Translations under genes and position numbers: made by a program | Shown: positions 40,821 to 63,382 of the stretch, in pieces | How the letters are laid out: every line of letters begins with the position of its first letter | Numbering within the stretch: position 1 is the stretch's first letter | Notes under the pieces: generated by a model | Seen by the model: the letters and a program-made list of their open reading frames with translations, nothing else | The model's database searches: none | Told to the model about the DNA's origin: nothing | Source of the DNA: Trichosporon coremiiforme | Taxonomy: Eukaryota; Basidiomycota; Tremellomycetes; Trichosporonales; Trichosporonaceae | NCBI GenBank assembly: GCA_039545355.1 | Contig: BCJJ01000004.1 | Location: forward strand, 1,816,801-1,880,800 | Reading direction: 5' to 3' | DNA length: 64,000 nucleotides

Positions 40821-43800
40821 TCATGACATCTGCACGTCCCCGTCTCCGTTCGCGACTTCCCCGTTTATCGCCTTCGGTGCCATGGTGTTCACAAACGAAG
40901 GGAACCGCCCCTTGAGCTCGTCGTCCGCCTCGAATTTCGAGATCAGCTCGTCAAGGAGCGCCTTCTGTTCGTCGACGAGACCAGGATCCGGCGCTGCCCC
41001 TGGACCCAGACCCCTCGGCACGCGTTTTGTCTTGGGCTGGTTGACTGGGCGGGTTCCCTGGTAGGCAATCTCCTCCGCAAGGTACTGCGCGAGCTGGTCG
41101 GCGAGAGTGTCGTCGCTGGTGGCCACAGCCAAAATTGTGGAGCGCAGGAGACGGTGGAGCGTGTGAGCGGCGTACGGCAGGGGAGGGGTGGCATTATTGA
41201 CTCCGTTCGCTGAGGTTCCGATAAGGTGCGGTTGCATTGAAGCAGGCACGAACAGTGATCGGGGGGCAAACAGTGAAGGGACCAGGCCATTCACGAGAGC
41301 CACAGAAAGAGGGATCCCTTGCAGGTGAAGCGCGCAGATGAGCGCTACCACTTGCGTTATCGGATCCTCAACGTCTACGACGGAGGGGTATACAATGTCG
41401 GGAAGCAGAGCGTCCAGGACTCTCAGTGAGCCTTCAGCGCGCAGCGCCGCCTGCACGGCGTCCAGCAACCTGGATTCCCAACCTTGCGTCGCAATGTCGA
41501 TGTGGCGTACGGCCTGAATTTCAGACCGCAGAGTGGGCAGAGGGGAAAGGTACGGAGGGTCTGGGAGGAGTGCTGAGCCATCGGGTCCTCCGACAGCCTG
41601 CAGTCGGGCGCGAACAGCGATCGCGTCGAAGCCTGAGCTCTGGATGACTGGCTCAAGTCCACTGGTGGGCTCGAGCAAGCGGTTCATAGCGTGGGCGTTC
41701 GCGCGTAGTAAGGGCTCGGGGAATGCAGAGTCGAGCACCAGAGTCTGCAAGACATTGAGGTGCACACCTGAGAGCTGTCCCAGACGCTCGATCTCGGCGC
41801 ACAGCCAGCCAACCACGCTGCCCAAGCACCATGACAGCAGGGGCTGAGCAAAGTATGACAGGCCAGAGTGCAGAGTGTCGAGGTCAATCTGACCTGAAGA
41901 CGCAGCAACAATTGACTGCTGCACCAGCGTTGAAGCCAATCGACACAGACCTTGCGGCGACGTCTTCAACAGAATTTCGTCGTCGATACCGTCAGAGCCG
42001 AACAGCGCTTTCACCCAGCCGTTAAGATGACCCCGCTCGTCCTCAGTGAGGTCTTCGAGGTTAGAGACACGACGAGCATTCCAAAGCAGGTGGGGCAATG
42101 GAAGCTAGAGGTTAGTTCAGAATCGGGTCATTGAACTCACCTTGAACTGGGCGCACAACGTTTCTGCCAGCACCACACCCGCTCCAAACCGGATAAGACT
42201 GCTCTGCGGGTCTTCCTGCCGCACGGCGGCGTCCTCAACTCGATCCAGAAGGTTTTCAGTGATGATGTCGAGTAGAGAGGAGGGCGAGATGTAGGCGGCA
42301 ATCAGAACCATCAGAGACGGAGAACCAGCCAGTCGGACGAAGAGGTTGTCGGGCGCCGACTTCTGGGCGATGTCGGTGATGCACTACTGTCAGTTGTCAA
42401 CACAGGCCGTCAAACTCACAGTGGCAACCTCAGCGCCAAGTGAAGCTGTGGAAGATGTCGCGCCAGAGGCATATGTGATAAATGTCTCCAGGGCAGGAAG
42501 GTGGGAGGGCGACGTTGTAGCTAGCCGCTCCATCAGAGACTCGCAAGAGGAAGCGGGCTTGACCGGGCTTCCGATGAGCTCGGTAGCAGCCTCCTCTTCC
42601 AGCAGCCCCAAAGACACGTAACGGCGCACGGCGGTCGCCTCCAGTGACAGCAGCGACCAGCCGTCAGGCTGCACATAGCCTTCCTCGTCTGGTTCTGACT
42701 GCGAAAACTTGGCCGTGTAGATCGAGTTGACAGCCTGGAACCAGTTGGAAAGTTGCTGCGAGTGCGTCGTGATCACTCCTTGCAGCGCACCCTGCAGGTC
42801 GGCAGGGTACGGCCACTTCGGGTCTGCATTGTCCCGCCACCACCGCAGCATAACGGGAAGAGCCTCGGTGAAGAAGACGTATGGTCGGACAGCGGCACTC
42901 GGAGAATGTGACCAGGAGGTTAACACCCGGTCTGCGGCAGCGTCGAACAGCGCGATAATGAACGCTTGGGAGTCCGTCGTGAGCGCGCGGCCAAGCTGGA
43001 TAATATGCCGATGGTGAGGATGAGGTAACCGCGGGACCGAAGCGTATTCCGGATTCCGCTCCCAGGTGTGGGCTCTCGCGCCGTACTCGATGAGGAAGGC
43101 TGCCGCTTGTCGGAGCGGCATGGCAGACACAGGCATCTGTACTCCGACGCCCATCTGTCCCATCTGCATGCCGACGCCGACATCGCCCATCCCATTGCCG
43201 AACATCACGTCCGGAGCAGGAGCTTGTGGAAGCGGGAGGTCTGCCATGAGACCAGCCAGACACTCTCTAAGTGGCTTCGCGACGTCCTCGGGGAGGAGGG
43301 AGCTGATCTGCGCGGCCTCGAGACCAGCCTCAAATGGTGGGGCGGGGATGGGTGGGATCAGCGTTGTCAGCCTGGCGGCAAGCGCGTGTAGTGGGGCAGG
43401 TGCCGGAGCAGAAGCGCACTGTCGCAACAGCGGCAAGAGCAGAACTAAGGCGGGGACCTCTTCCGGTTCAGCTGAAGCACTCGTGCCGACGTCAGGAACA
43501 TCAGAGAGCACCACCGGGGACGGAAGCGTTTCGTTCAAACCGGTCGGGTTGGAGATGAGAGCAGTCGCGATGGACGCGAGCACCGGCGTCGATGGCTGGA
43601 CCTCGGAGCGATGCAGGTGGACCTGTAGCGCGACTGCAAACTCCCTGGCGGTGAATATCCCGTCTGCGAGAGCCTGTTGCAAGTATGTGACGAGGACCGA
43701 AGGTGAATGCGGCTTCACAAGGTGATGCAGAAGGGCGGCTGAAGTCAGCTATGTCAGACGAGGAGCAGCTCACCAGTGATGGTTCGAGTCGCAGTCTCGG

Positions 43801-46020: not shown

Positions 46021-48138
46021 ATGGCCGGACTCGTGGAGCCGATCATGGGCGAGTCGAAGAAGCGCGTCGTGAGTCACCCCCTAACCCAGCCCGTCACTTG
46101 CCGTGCTCGTGCTAACCGTCCCCAGTGCTACTTCTTCGACTCGGACATCGGGAACTATCACTATGGCCCGGGCCACCCGATGAAGCCGACGCGTATCCGC
46201 ATGTGCCACTCGCTCGTGATGAACTATGGGCTGTACAAGCAGATGGAGATCTTCCGCGCCAAGCCGGCGACGAAGCGCGAGATGTCCCAGTTCCATACGG
46301 ACGAGTACGTCGACTTTCTGCACCGCATCACGCCCGACAACGAGGCACAGTTTTCCAAGGAGCAGGTCAAGTACAACGTTGGCGACGACTGCCCCATCTT
46401 TGACGGCCTGTTCGAGTACTGCTCCATCTCGGCTGGCGGCTCTATGGAGGGCGCGGCTCGTCTGAGCAGGGACAAGTGCGACATTGCCGTCAACTGGGCC
46501 GGTGGATTGCATCACGCGAAGAAGGCTGAGGCGAGCGGATTCTGTTACGTCAATGGTGAGTGGTGAGATTGGCCGCGGAGTGAGGGACATTCGGACCTGT
46601 CGCTCGCGGCATCGCCGAGCCGTCTGCGCGCAGTCAAGCGCTGGCTGATTTTCTCTGATCGCGGTGCGAGTGGGCCCTTGATGGAGCTAGCTGGCAGGTC
46701 GTGGTAAAAGCTGACATCAGACATTGTGCTCGGCATTTTGGAGCTGCTGCGGTATCACCAGCGCGTTCTCTACGTCGACATCGACGTGCACCACGGCGAC
46801 GGAGTGGAGGAGGCCTTCTACACGACAGACCGTGTCATGACGTGCTCGTTCCACAAGTATGGCGAGTTCTTCCCCGGTACGGGCGACGTGCGGGACACGG
46901 GTATCGGCAAGGGGAAGGGGTACGCCGTGAACGTTCCCCTGCGGGATGGGATGAGCGACGCCAACTACGCCTCCATCTTCCAGCCGGTCATCACGCGCAT
47001 CATCGAGTGGTACAAGCCGGGCGCGATCGTGCTGCAGTGCGGCTCGGACTCGCTCTCCGGCGACCGGCTCGGAAGCTTCAACCTCTCCATGCGCGGCCAC
47101 GCCGCCTGCGTACAGTTCATCAAAGGCTTTGGCCTCCCGCTCCTCATGCTCGGCGGAGGAGGGTACACCGTCAAGTCGGTCTCGCGAACCTGGGCTTACG
47201 AGACAGGCCTGGCCGCCGGTGTCGAGCTCGGCAGCTCCATCCCCAACAACGAGTACTACGAGTACTACGGCCCGGACTACGAGCTCGACGTCAAGCCGAA
47301 CAACATGGCCGACCACAACACGCGCGAGTACCTCGACAAGGTGCGCGAGAGCGTCTTCGAAATGTTGCGTGACAAGGAGGCCGCGCCCTCTGTCCCGCTG
47401 CAGTCTATCCCGAAACTGGCCCATGACGACGAGGACGTGCTGGACGGAAACGAGAATGAGGACGACGAGGACCCCGATGAGCGCCGCCCCATGCGGCTCT
47501 GGGACCGGGAGAAGCAGAACGAAAACTCGCTCAGTGATTCCGAGGACGAAGGGCTCGGCGGGAGGCGGCACAGACAGAGTCACCGGGAGCGGTCTGAGCG
47601 CGCCGAACGTGCGTCGCGTGAAGGATCGAAGGGACGGAGACGATCGCGGTCCCCGCGTACGCCGGCCCAAGTTGCCGAGAAGTCCGAGAGGCCAGAGCGG
47701 GCAGTGGAGAAGGAGAAGAAGGACGAACCCCTGGCCGAGAAGAACAAGGAGACGGAACAGCTCGGCGTGCAGACCGAGACGACGTCGGCGGACATCAAGA
47801 AGTGGGCCGCCACGGTCGAGCAGGCCCGGGACGGGGATGTGGAGATGAAGGATGAGGAGACGGTCGATAAGCCCGAGACGCACGCCGAGAAGCCCGCTGA
47901 GAGTGCTGAGAAGCCTGCTGAGAGCAGCGAGAAGCCCGCCGATAAGCCCGCCGAGCCTGCCGCCCCTGCCGAGACCGCGGCCGAGGCCGAGCCGAAACTC
48001 GCCGAACCCGCCGAGCCGACAGCTGCGGAGGAGGAGAAGAAGGACGAGGCGGCCCCAGCCCCCGTCCCGACGGCGGAGGGCGAGAAGCTCGCCGAGGAGA
48101 AGAAGGACGAGTCCGAGCCGATGGACACGGATAAATAG
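46021..48138 (+). CDS. RPD3: Class I histone deacetylase, RPD3 type
   Basis: Three exons (46021-46068, 46126-46555, 46721-48138) give 631 residues. The deacetylase domain (about 18-385) is very well conserved: [20 protein letters not shown], the catalytic His pair in GGLHHAKK (about 145-146), the zinc/charge-relay site [17 protein letters not shown], and [13 protein letters not shown], which is closer to Rpd3 than to Hos2. It removes acetyl groups from histone H3/H4 tails in Rpd3L/Sin3-type complexes. The C-terminal 240 residues are charged and disordered, with Arg/Ser-rich then Glu/Lys/Pro/Ala repeats ([14 protein letters not shown]), longer than the yeast tail. Convergent with the kinase gene (527 bp). 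Confidence 0.95.
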
Positions 48139-59640: not shown

Positions 59641-62600
59641 CTAAGCGGTGACGGGAAAGTGATACGTCACGTCACTCGCCTCCGTCTCGGCATCAATGTC
59701 GTCCAGTCTCCTATCATTCACCTCTGTCTGCGTCTTCTTCATCGGCGACCCCGGTCCCCCAGACCCCAGAGCTTTGCTAGCCGCCAGACTCTCCTTCCTC
59801 GGCGGCGGCTGGCTCTCGACATAGTGCGCCATCTGCCTTCCCCGGATCGCAAAGCCGCACTTCTCATAAAACGGCACCATGCGTTCCTGGCAGTCGAGGA
59901 TCACTTTATAGGCGCCCAGGTTGGCGGCCATTTCCCTCAGGCCGCGGACTAGCGTCTGCCCCAGGCCCCGGCCTTGCAGACGCTCGCTGACTATGATGTC
60001 CTCGATGTGCGCGCTGAGGCCGCCGCCGTGGCTGAACTTGCGCTCGAGCAGGAGCGTGCCGGACAGGACGAGCTCGTCCGTCGCCCGCTCGACGAGGACG
60101 AGGATGTAGTAGATCCCGCTCGCCTTGAGGCCGTTGAAGAGGTTGGCGTACGTCGAGGGCGCGAGGGCGGGAGACTGCGAGAGCGTGGACAGCAGGCTGA
60201 AGTGGGCGCGGAGGAAGTCGTCGCTCGCGAGGGGACGGAGGTGGTATTCCTTCGGAATGGCCGACTGCATGCTCTGCGGGATCAGGGCGGGGTCGAAGAG
60301 GAGACTGAGGGACTGATCGGGGGTGAGCTTGTCGATGGGCGGCTCGCTGTCGTCGCTCAAGTCGTCGCGCGGCGTGACGAGCACGAGCTTGGTGCGCGAA
60401 GTCCCTGGTCCCGTGTTGCGTTCCTTGGGAACTTCTTCTTCGCTCTCCTCCTCTGCGTCGTCGTAGCCATAGTCGTACTCGCCCGAGTGGTACGAGAGGG
60501 GCGTCGTCGCTGGCCCAAAGATCAGGTCGCAGTGCGTAATCATGTCCTCGAGCACAGAGTCGCGGTGCGTCTGCATCTGCATCAGCGCCTCACCGTTCTC
60601 GGGCGTCTTCTCCGGTCCAAAGAGCACGCTGTTGAAGACGACGGCGAGGTTGTGCGCGTCCATCTTGTTCTCCTCGGCGTGGTCCGCGACACGGGCCAGG
60701 TGCTCGATGATGGCGCGCAGCGTTGTCTGGTGGATCGGCGGCAGCCGCCGGAGTCGCGAGCGAATGACACTGAACTTGTTCTCGAGGTACGAGTCGCGGT
60801 CGGCCGTCATCTTGGCGCGCTCGGCGAGCGGGAGCGGAAATAACGGATCAGGTAATTCGCGCAGGTACTGCTTCAGCACGCCCGCGATGCTGTGCACATC
60901 GTACGTCGGCTTGAACTGGAAGTGCGCCTCGGTGCGCTCAATCTCCTGTACCATGTCGCGCACGGTCGCGACGCGCCCAGAGATACGGTAGATGCCCTCC
61001 GTCTCGAGACCGTAGGCGTCGATCCTAGCGATGCACTTCTCGACAATGAGCGGGGGACGGCCGTGGTCGCCGCCCTCGCCGCGCGCAAAGTCGTAGTCGG
61101 TCAGCGACACGCCAAAGATCAGACTCTGGCACGGTCCGACATGGTAGTTCTCGTACACGACCGGCTTGTTCTTCACGATCGGCGGGAGCCTGGACCGGAA
61201 CTGCATCCCGTCGTGCTCGAGGCTGATATGCTTGATCGCCGTGCCGACAACCTCGGTCGCCTGCGCGAGCGTCACAGCCGTCGCGTGCGCATGGGTGACG
61301 TAGTGCGCGAGCGCAGCGCGCAGGTTCATGTTGAGTTCCTCGTTCAGGTCCGTCAGGCTCTGGATCGCAGATGTCTGGAGCTTCTCTCGTCGCAGTCGCA
61401 GCGTCTCCGTGTGGAACACGCCCTTGCGGTACGCCTTGTCGGCCTCCTCTGCCTCGCGGCGCGCCTTGACGCTCTTCATGGCGCTGACGGGGTGTGAGCG
61501 CACGCTCCCTCTTCGCGGGATGTTGGACTCGGGCGGGGAAACGGCAACCTCGGGTCCACCCTTCTCGGGTGCGCCGTCGCGGTCGCCCGCCATCCGGTCC
61601 ATGAGTGACCTAAAGCCCTTCTTGCCGTGCGCCGCAATGTCGTTCATGATCTCCTTTGAGCGCGCATCGACGTCGCGCAGCGTCAACCCCGATGCTGAGC
61701 CCGATCGCGAGCGCCCACTCTGCTGGACACCCGAGAAGTGGATCGGTGTCTTACGGTCGGGGATCGTCGTCGCCGGCGATAAGGCTGAGGGGTGGTAGCC
61801 CTGCTGCTGCTGGGGCGCGAGGTGGATCGACGGAGCGGTGGAGTGGTAAGATGGCGAGGGCAGGCCGGACTGAGACGTCGGCGAGTTCGGGCTGGGAAAG
61901 TTGGGATCGTCAGAGTCGAGCGACCCGCTCGACCGCCGGCTGCGGCTGATGCTCGGCGCGCGCATCGAGTGCCCGTCCCGAATCGAAGCAGCTGCCGACA
62001 TGTACGGGTGCGGCTGCTTCTCGGGCAGCGCGGGGTTGGCTTCGCTGAGCAGCAGCTGCTGCTTCGCGACTGCGGCTTCCTGCTTCCGGATCTCCTCCAA
62101 TGCCTGTTCCTTGCTCCGGTACGTCTTCTCGAGCTTCGGCACCTTGGAGAAGACGTACGACTCGTACTGCTCCGTCGCCTCCTTCAGTCCTTCGCGGATG
62201 CGGTTTCGGATCCGCGTTTGCGTGTCACGGATCCCCGTCAACGGCGCGACCACCGTAGTCTGCAGTGCGTGCACAAACGCCTCTCGTGAGGCGATCTCGC
62301 GCTCTGTATAGTCGCGCACTTCGAACCATGCTTTCCGTGTCGTGGACGCGAACCGTCTGTTGCCGATGCTGGTATCAGTGCGTGGACCAAAGGTGGGTGA
62401 CGCGTTCAGCGTGCCTGAAGCGACGGCCGTTGCTGCTGTCACAAATGGCAGGCAGCTGTGCACCTCCGGCTGCGAGATATCGCGCGCAGCAGTCTTGCAA
62501 CTCACTCGTCGACCTGCGAGTCCGCTCCAATCTGCTTCGCGTGCAGTTTATTCAGCGCCTCGACGTAGCTCTGCTCGATCTTGATGCGCTCGTTGAAGTA

Positions 62601-63382
62601 GCTGATGTACGACTCGTCCTCGGCGAGTTTGCGCTGGGCTAGTCAGTCAGGTGCCTCTGCGAGGGTGTGGGTGGGTGTGCGTGGGTCAGTGTGAGTGAGG
62701 GGCGATGCTCGCGCCGAGCCGTGGGTTGGTTGAATCGGTGTCCTGTGGGTCATTGCCCGGCATGAGGAAATTAGGTGCGCTGAACCTTGACTGCGGTGAG
62801 GTCGTAGGCAAACAGTCCAGCAGCATGCAGGCATGCGCTGCGCGCGCTGCTATCGCGTATCTAAACTTAGACAGCCCGACCGCACACAGCTGTCTAGGCA
62901 GTCTGGGCTGCGGTCGAAAACGCCAAGTTGCGCAGCAGGCGCACTGTCATAGAATCTGGACACTGCGTGCGTAGCGAGTTGGAGCGAGTTGAGAGAAACG
63001 CGGGCAAGGGGGCGAAGCTGGGTCATAGCGTGGAGGCGAGCCGACTTGCTGCGAGCGTGGGAGCAGCGAGGCTGAGCTTATGCAGACGGGTGAGGGGGTG
63101 TTTGAGGTTGTCCGGGTGTCGGGGGTTGCTGTGGGATGTGATGGGCGGGATGACGGACGGCCGTCGTAGATGATAACAAGGGACGTCGGACAGAGTGCTT
63201 CGTGCGCACCGAGCCATGCCGAGGTCGAGTGGTCAGGCGACGAGCGAGCAGCGAGCAGCGCGGGGAAGCGAGCGAGGGGGGATAAGCGAGCTGCGGCTTA
63301 CCTTGAACTCCTTCAGGATGTCGGCATCCTGGTCTGCGCCTTTGCGCGGCTGCGCCAGTCCCGGTTCATAAGCGTACGCCAT
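59641..63382 (-). CDS. F-BAR / RhoGAP / glucosamine-6-phosphate N-acetyltransferase fusion
   Basis: Three exons (63302-63382, 62506-62633, 59641-62368) give 978 residues in one frame. The N-terminus is an F-BAR/FCH region (ILKEFKRKLAEDESYISYF, about 22-40) that binds curved membranes; it is interrupted by a long Ser/Pro-rich stretch and resumes at about 385-450. A RhoGAP domain follows at about 485-683, with the arginine finger in GIYRISGR and the NLAVVFNSVLFGP helix, as in Rgd1, which inactivates Rho GTPases. After an acidic linker comes a GNAT domain at about 750-915 matching Gna1: LLFDPALIPQ, HIEDIIVSERLQGRGLGQTL (acetyl-CoA loop) and ILDCQERMVPFYEKCGF. Gna1 makes N-acetylglucosamine-6-phosphate for UDP-GlcNAc, chitin and glycosylation. 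No stop, ATG-led restart or splice signal separates the two halves. The first intron is 668 bp. Confidence 0.88.

Follow-up and report, generated by a model that had tools for sequence, protein, structure and literature searches.

A predicted F-BAR–RhoGAP–Gna1 fusion protein in Trichosporon coremiiforme and related yeasts of the Tremellales and Trichosporonales

In a 64,000-nucleotide stretch of the Trichosporon coremiiforme genome (contig BCJJ01000004.1, positions 1,816,801 to 1,880,800; referred to below as the window), a Rho regulatory domain and the wall-precursor enzyme glucosamine-6-phosphate N-acetyltransferase (Gna1) appear to be encoded in one reading frame. This locus raises the questions of (i) whether the two domains are truly parts of one protein; (ii) whether the fused Gna1 is still an intact enzyme; and (iii) what role a Gna1 joined to a Rho regulator might have. 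A first-pass annotation of the window had proposed that a RhoGAP domain and Gna1 are fused in frame within a single exon, and the open frame, the Pfam domains and a match to a solved Gna1 structure bear this out. The predicted F-BAR–RhoGAP–Gna1 product is a single protein from a single gene.

An open frame on the minus strand (59641-62505) runs for 954 codons without an internal stop, and a GT-AG splice model with introns of 668 and 137 bp yields three exons and a protein of 978 residues (Table 1). This model reproduces both the length and the exon limit given in the first-pass annotation, the exon of which is the third of the three. The MAYAY start is shared with relatives such as the database proteins P0005, P0028 and P0008. 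The domain order is F-BAR, RhoGAP with an arginine finger, acidic disordered linker, complete Gna1 and tail. Pfam RhoGAP (PF00620) scores 142.9 bits in the exon 3 frame (cut-off 24.5), with the arginine finger R531 lying in GIYRISG, and a Pfam GNAT domain is found in the 59641-62505 frame as well. By sequence, the best solved-structure match of the C-terminal part is Aspergillus fumigatus Gna1 (2vez, E 3.3e-29). Structure prediction was carried out on one chain of the exon 3 product; the predicted fold agrees with known Gna1 and RhoGAP structures, the C-terminal domain having the Gna1 fold and standing closer to Gna1 than to other GNATs. In the spliced N-terminal half, Pfam FCH (PF00611) scores 30.5 bits against a cut-off of 27.8, which places an F-BAR domain there, and the predicted structure of exon 3 has long helices (9-108 and 294-379). 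Against this assignment, the N-terminal half had no match among Protein Data Bank chains by sequence at E values up to 1. The F-BAR domain, which draws on the upstream exons, was absent from the first-pass annotation.

Table 1. Features of the fusion gene, in coordinates of the window
Feature	Position	Strand	Content	Basis
Exon 1	63302..63382	-	Start codon and first 27 residues (MAYAY...KEFK)	GT-AG splice model
Exon 2	62506..62633	-	F-BAR (FCH) part	Splice model; FCH match at residues 24-98 of the spliced protein
Exon 3	59641..62368	-	Remaining F-BAR, RhoGAP, linker, Gna1, C-terminal tail, stop codon	Open frame and splice model
RhoGAP domain	60610..61053	-	Residues 509-656; arginine finger R531 at 60985-60987	
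Acidic disordered linker	60307..60510	-	Residues 690-757 (68 residues); holds the GTSRTK stretch	
Complete Gna1 domain	59812..60306	-	Residues 758-922; HIED at 59998-60009; FYEKCGF at 59851-59871 (residues 903-909)	
C-terminal tail	59644..59811	-	Residues 923-978; VTYHFP at 59653-59670	

The linker between the domains had been described as acidic, in frame, free of stop codons and about 70 residues long, a description that holds closely and to which predicted disorder can be added (predicted local distance difference test score, pLDDT, below 50 across model residues 622-678). Its translation can be assessed by comparison with a homeologous copy of the gene on contig C2, which encodes 972 residues of the same architecture with 96.6% amino-acid identity and 0.51 synonymous substitutions per site (dS). 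The ratio of nonsynonymous to synonymous rates (dN/dS) between the two is 0.046 overall, 0.035 in the RhoGAP part (residues 508-689), 0.075 in the linker, 0.027 in Gna1 and 0.126 in the tail. Differences within the linker amount to 23.5 at 47 synonymous sites and 9.5 at 157 nonsynonymous sites (p 5e-11, Fisher test on rounded counts). Since nonsynonymous change is suppressed relative to synonymous change, the linker is very likely translated in this frame.

A database search with residues 480-954, in which scoring was confined to the 7,992 candidates with the most words in common, found 101 proteins, of which 33 carry RhoGAP and GNAT Pfam domains together; species with both domains in one model, a check that the first-pass annotation had proposed, therefore exist in number. 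The pattern EGIYRx[SN]G is present in 32 of these 33, the remaining protein having EGLYRISG. An organism name is attached to 27 of the 33, and all 27 fall in the Tremellales or Trichosporonales; the order was looked up for five species. No GNAT domain is listed for the other 68 proteins. Among these, P0034 (C. gattii), P0035 and P0036 look like members of the fused family, but their models stop before Gna1; a further 22, all named fungal proteins from the range P0037-P0060, are RhoGAPs that lack Gna1, and 17 of the 22 list FCH. P0008, whose longest contig has 5,874 bases, reads in an unbroken frame from MAYAY through Gna1 to the terminal tail and possibly derives from a transcript contig, whereas P0001-P0003, P0012, P0035 and P0036 either begin within exon 3 or continue across positions that are intronic. 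The tail motif of the VTYHFP type (pattern [VI][TS]Y.FP) occurs in 22 of the 33 fused proteins, whereas P0034-P0062 all lack it. Read by eye, several fused tails add a PAWAxEG stretch and a terminal EPERI/L.

A search of long proteins in which the query was limited to the Gna1 stretch yielded 19 matches, 18 of them fused proteins and one a Wallemia model; as this search recovered 18 of the 33 known fused proteins, it tests absence outside the two orders weakly. The Wallemia ichthyophaga model, P0222, was considered as a second fusion and rejected: it reads as a kexin-type protease, Gna1 and Mo25, branches outside the fused clade and probably represents three neighbouring genes merged in one model. 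No names of Filobasidiales or Cystofilobasidiales, fused or unfused, were recognised among the matches listed, which for free Gna1 are the best 120 of 739.

To judge the fused enzyme, we compared 32 fused Gna1 domains (30 database proteins, the window's protein and its homeolog) with 118 free fungal Gna1 proteins, 89 from outside and 29 from inside the Tremellomycetes (P0133, P0183, P0219 and P0220 were excluded). P0012, P0027 and P0033, whose models break inside Gna1, were left out of this comparison and of the trees described below. Of 38 columns that are at least 90% conserved in the free enzymes, 30 stay at least 90% conserved in the fused ones, among them H857, E859, D860, G869, G873, Y890, K891, C896, F903 and Y904. 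Of the other eight columns, seven show partial relaxation or a shift to similar residues, and in one an Asn has been substituted outright; apart from that Asn, the residues by which the family is recognised are retained. E859, D860, Y890, C896 and Y904 are kept in all 32 fused domains and K891 in 31. Also kept in 31 is D895, which aligns with E156 of human Gna1, for which an E156A mutant structure (3cxp) exists. Given this conservation, the fused Gna1 is likely to be catalytically active.

The first-pass annotation had also suggested looking for a free gna1 gene in the same genome, and one is present in two homeologous copies, on contigs C1 and C3, that encode 183 and 184 residues, have five short introns each and differ with a dN/dS of 0.077. 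Used as a database query, the C1 protein had 739 matches, from which the best 120 were taken. By name matching, fused and free forms occur together in the 20 genomes compared, namely the window's and those of 19 named relatives; Tremellales sp. Uapishka_1 has both forms but was omitted from this comparison as its model breaks inside Gna1. Across the 20 genomes, mean pairwise identity between species is 0.639 for fused Gna1 and 0.673 for free Gna1, and the fused and free enzymes of the same species are on average 47% identical. For C. oleaginosum, which has a fused match, no free match by that name is among the best 120 of 739, possibly a limit of the search. Separate neighbouring genes are not what related species have in place of the fusion: related genomes carry the fused gene too, and their free gene is an additional copy that differs from it.

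In a 94-row tree, the only one to include P0222, the 32 fused Gna1 domains, all from Tremellomycetes, form one clade with a Shimodaira–Hasegawa-like approximate likelihood ratio test (SH-aLRT) support of 100 and a stem of 0.92 changes per column. Free and fused Tremellomycete copies together split from all other rows at 98, and one free sequence, P0127, groups with the fused clade at 81. The fused clade is kept in a more careful 82-row tree (100/100 support); there the free Tremellomycete copies do not form one clade, although a tree forcing them into one is not rejected and scores better (approximately unbiased test, p-AU 0.757). Because the fused domains form one clade, the fusion, as read from these trees, arose once within the Tremellomycetes; and because both orders hold fused and free groups, duplication and fusion are most simply placed before the split of the Tremellales and Trichosporonales. 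The locus tags of fused and free genes lie 37-59 apart in eight Kwoniella and Cryptococcus genomes, and fused and free proteins are on equal-sized contigs in six more (V. albida, V. pseudolonga, Kockovaella, Naematelia, Cryptotrichosporon and T. mesenterica), which suggests local duplication of gna1. Against this, the two genes are on different contigs in the window's genome and on different-sized contigs in C. cavernicola, C. spelunceum, K. heveanensis and Tremellales sp. Uapishka_1, some of these assemblies being drafts. Read by eye, the GTSRTK stretch of the linker is similar to a motif that unfused RhoGAP relatives have in their tails, a likeness that would be expected if gna1 was inserted within such a tail.

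As to its role, we put at roughly 0.5 the probability that the fusion protein acts as an active, membrane-tethered second Gna1 at Rho-controlled sites of wall building. The F-BAR part would target the dimeric protein to the plasma membrane where the cell grows and divides, and there the RhoGAP part would turn off a Rho-family GTPase. Gna1, held on a flexible leash, would be an active glucosamine-6-phosphate N-acetyltransferase and form a second, membrane-held enzyme pool that acetylates glucosamine 6-phosphate (GlcN-6-P) near the wall-synthesis machinery, and free Gna1 would serve the rest of the cell. A passage of PMC7324522 describes Gna1 as an obligate homodimer with swapped elements and with active sites made of residues of both chains, so that dimerisation through F-BAR would bring two Gna1 domains together and might thereby promote their activity; the same source reports that deletion of A. 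fumigatus GNA1 costs viability unless N-acetylglucosamine (GlcNAc) is supplied. The S. pombe F-BAR RhoGAP Rga7, found at tips and septum, is described in part of PMC12574955 as recruiting the glucan synthases Bgs4 and Ags1 at the septum, and the fusion may, in a similar way, keep Gna1 at the places where wall synthases act.

The membrane-localised regulator proposed in the first-pass annotation is therefore compatible with the F-BAR domain and the Rga7 analogy, but Rho1, which it had named as the GTPase concerned, gains no support from the nearest studied proteins: Rga7 is called a Rho2 GTPase-activating protein (GAP) in that part of PMC12574955, and Rgd1 is given in a passage of PMC5922528 as a GAP for Rho3, Rho4 and Cdc42, so that Rho1 is not the best-supported target. 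Nor does the fusion put the whole of precursor supply under this regulator, because free Gna1 is retained beside the fusion, which is thus not the sole Gna1.

Several observations weigh against the proposed role. At position 900, Asn is found in 118 of 118 free enzymes and in none of the 32 fused ones (Lys in 25, Met in four, Arg in three), and the fused protein of Kockovaella, P0029, has Gly in place of the Asp of the LDC motif. The loss of Asn need not abolish activity, since C. elegans Gna1, with Leu, and an acetyltransferase of this family from T. brucei, with Ser, lack it too. Three genera (Apiotrichum, Papiliotrema and Dioszegia) have a listed free Gna1 but no fused protein named among the 101 found, which may reflect loss or a limit of the search. 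From GlcNAc 6-phosphate, two more enzymes are needed to reach uridine diphosphate-GlcNAc. Gfa1, which acts upstream of Gna1, is called the rate-limiting step in part of PMC11907850; with that, and with a free Gna1 present in the genome, it is not obvious why a local pool would be required.

In a different role, Gna1 would bind GlcN-6-P and acetyl-CoA and tune the RhoGAP through its dimer or the leash, making signals for wall building follow the supply of hexosamine, with catalysis being secondary. In favour of this, the free enzyme makes a second catalyst not strictly necessary, sensing would call for conserved ligand-binding residues just as catalysis would, and the change at position 900 in every fused copy examined could mean altered ligand handling. 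However, the predicted disorder of the linker does not favour direct allostery, and an active enzyme would be expected to keep its signature residues almost completely, as is seen here. That the Gna1 domain reports the supply of GlcN-6-P or acetyl-CoA to the RhoGAP, an arrangement fixed in the ancestor of the Tremellales and Trichosporonales after gna1 duplication, strikes us as a rather unlikely account; if true, a single polypeptide would connect wall-precursor metabolism and Rho signalling directly and in both directions. We hold it similarly doubtful that Gna1 was kept mainly for its stable homodimer, which would strengthen F-BAR dimers or position the protein, its chemistry being incidental. 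Free Gna1 does already cover the chemistry, but a mere dimeriser need not keep E859, D860, Y890, K891 and Y904 as faithfully as the fused domains do.

Far less probable is that RhoGAP and Gna1 are expressed separately, from an internal promoter or as an artefact of annotation, with the joined frame incidental. The LLFDP stretch with which the Gna1 part opens is one that the free enzyme has close to its N-terminus, and the C. gattii model P0034 ends before Gna1; against these stand the in-frame purifying selection on the linker codons, the 33 database proteins joined in the same order, and P0008, which reads through both domains in a single frame. That the fused Gna1 is a drifting relic, as its long stem and lost Asn might suggest, is already contradicted by the constraint between homeologs and by a between-species identity near that of the free enzyme, and we consider it highly improbable.

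The assembly as a whole comprises 42.0 megabases in 134 contigs, and RhoGAP, FCH and gna1 matches in it often come as near-equal pairs on different contigs (e.g., C4/C2, C1/C3, C18/C19 and C9/C10). With dS at about 0.5 for both gene pairs measured, the pattern is as in a hybrid or duplicated genome. Elsewhere in the window, the open frame at 46726-48135 (plus strand) matches a histone deacetylase (181 bits) and that at 40824-42098 (minus strand) matches Mediator Med5 (65 bits).

Public sequence records of the fusion exist, some of them named 'glucosamine 6-phosphate N-acetyltransferase'; the fusion was not mentioned in the titles or abstract openings listed by literature searches aimed at it, whose capped lists could miss a passing mention. 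The predicted architecture combines two known families in a new way, and its conservation is broad and strong enough for it to be functional. A wall-precursor enzyme would thus be physically joined to a membrane-type Rho regulator across yeasts that include Cryptococcus and the Trichosporonales, with a free copy kept, and coordination of wall signalling with precursor supply becomes testable. Studies that target Gna1 in these fungi as the product of one gene should allow for two sources of it.

Compared with F-BAR RhoGAPs of the Rgd1/Rga7 type (S. cerevisiae Rgd1, S. pombe Rga7), the fusion adds a whole Gna1 and a further tail after RhoGAP. A second F-BAR RhoGAP pair is present in the genome (L029 on C19 and L030 on C18), with no Gna1 match at these places. 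Because this pair matches the Rgd1 RhoGAP structure 5my3 better by sequence (77.4 bits for the C19 protein, 62.2 bits for the fusion), either the pair or the fusion may be the Rgd1 ortholog of this genome. Deletion of C. neoformans RGD1 (CNAG_05838) is said in a passage of PMC5586382 to increase virulence; we do not equate the fusion with that gene, given the second F-BAR RhoGAP and no evidence tying the tag to the fused protein. The fused domain resembles Gna1/GNPNAT1 in being complete, with the LLFDP N-terminal stretch, HIED, the acetyl-CoA loop, YK, LDC and FYEKCGF, and differs from the free enzymes in lying at the C-terminus of a signalling protein and in the replacement of an invariant Asn by Lys, Arg or Met. 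To the 22 named unfused Basidiomycota F-BAR RhoGAPs (P0037-P0060), which we take to be mostly Agaricomycetes, it is 46-52% identical over the aligned RhoGAP part. Many unfused Basidiomycota RhoGAPs carry, by eye, a G-S/T-x-x-T motif after RhoGAP, like the start of the linker here; unlike the fusion, they finish with a tail and list no GNAT domain.
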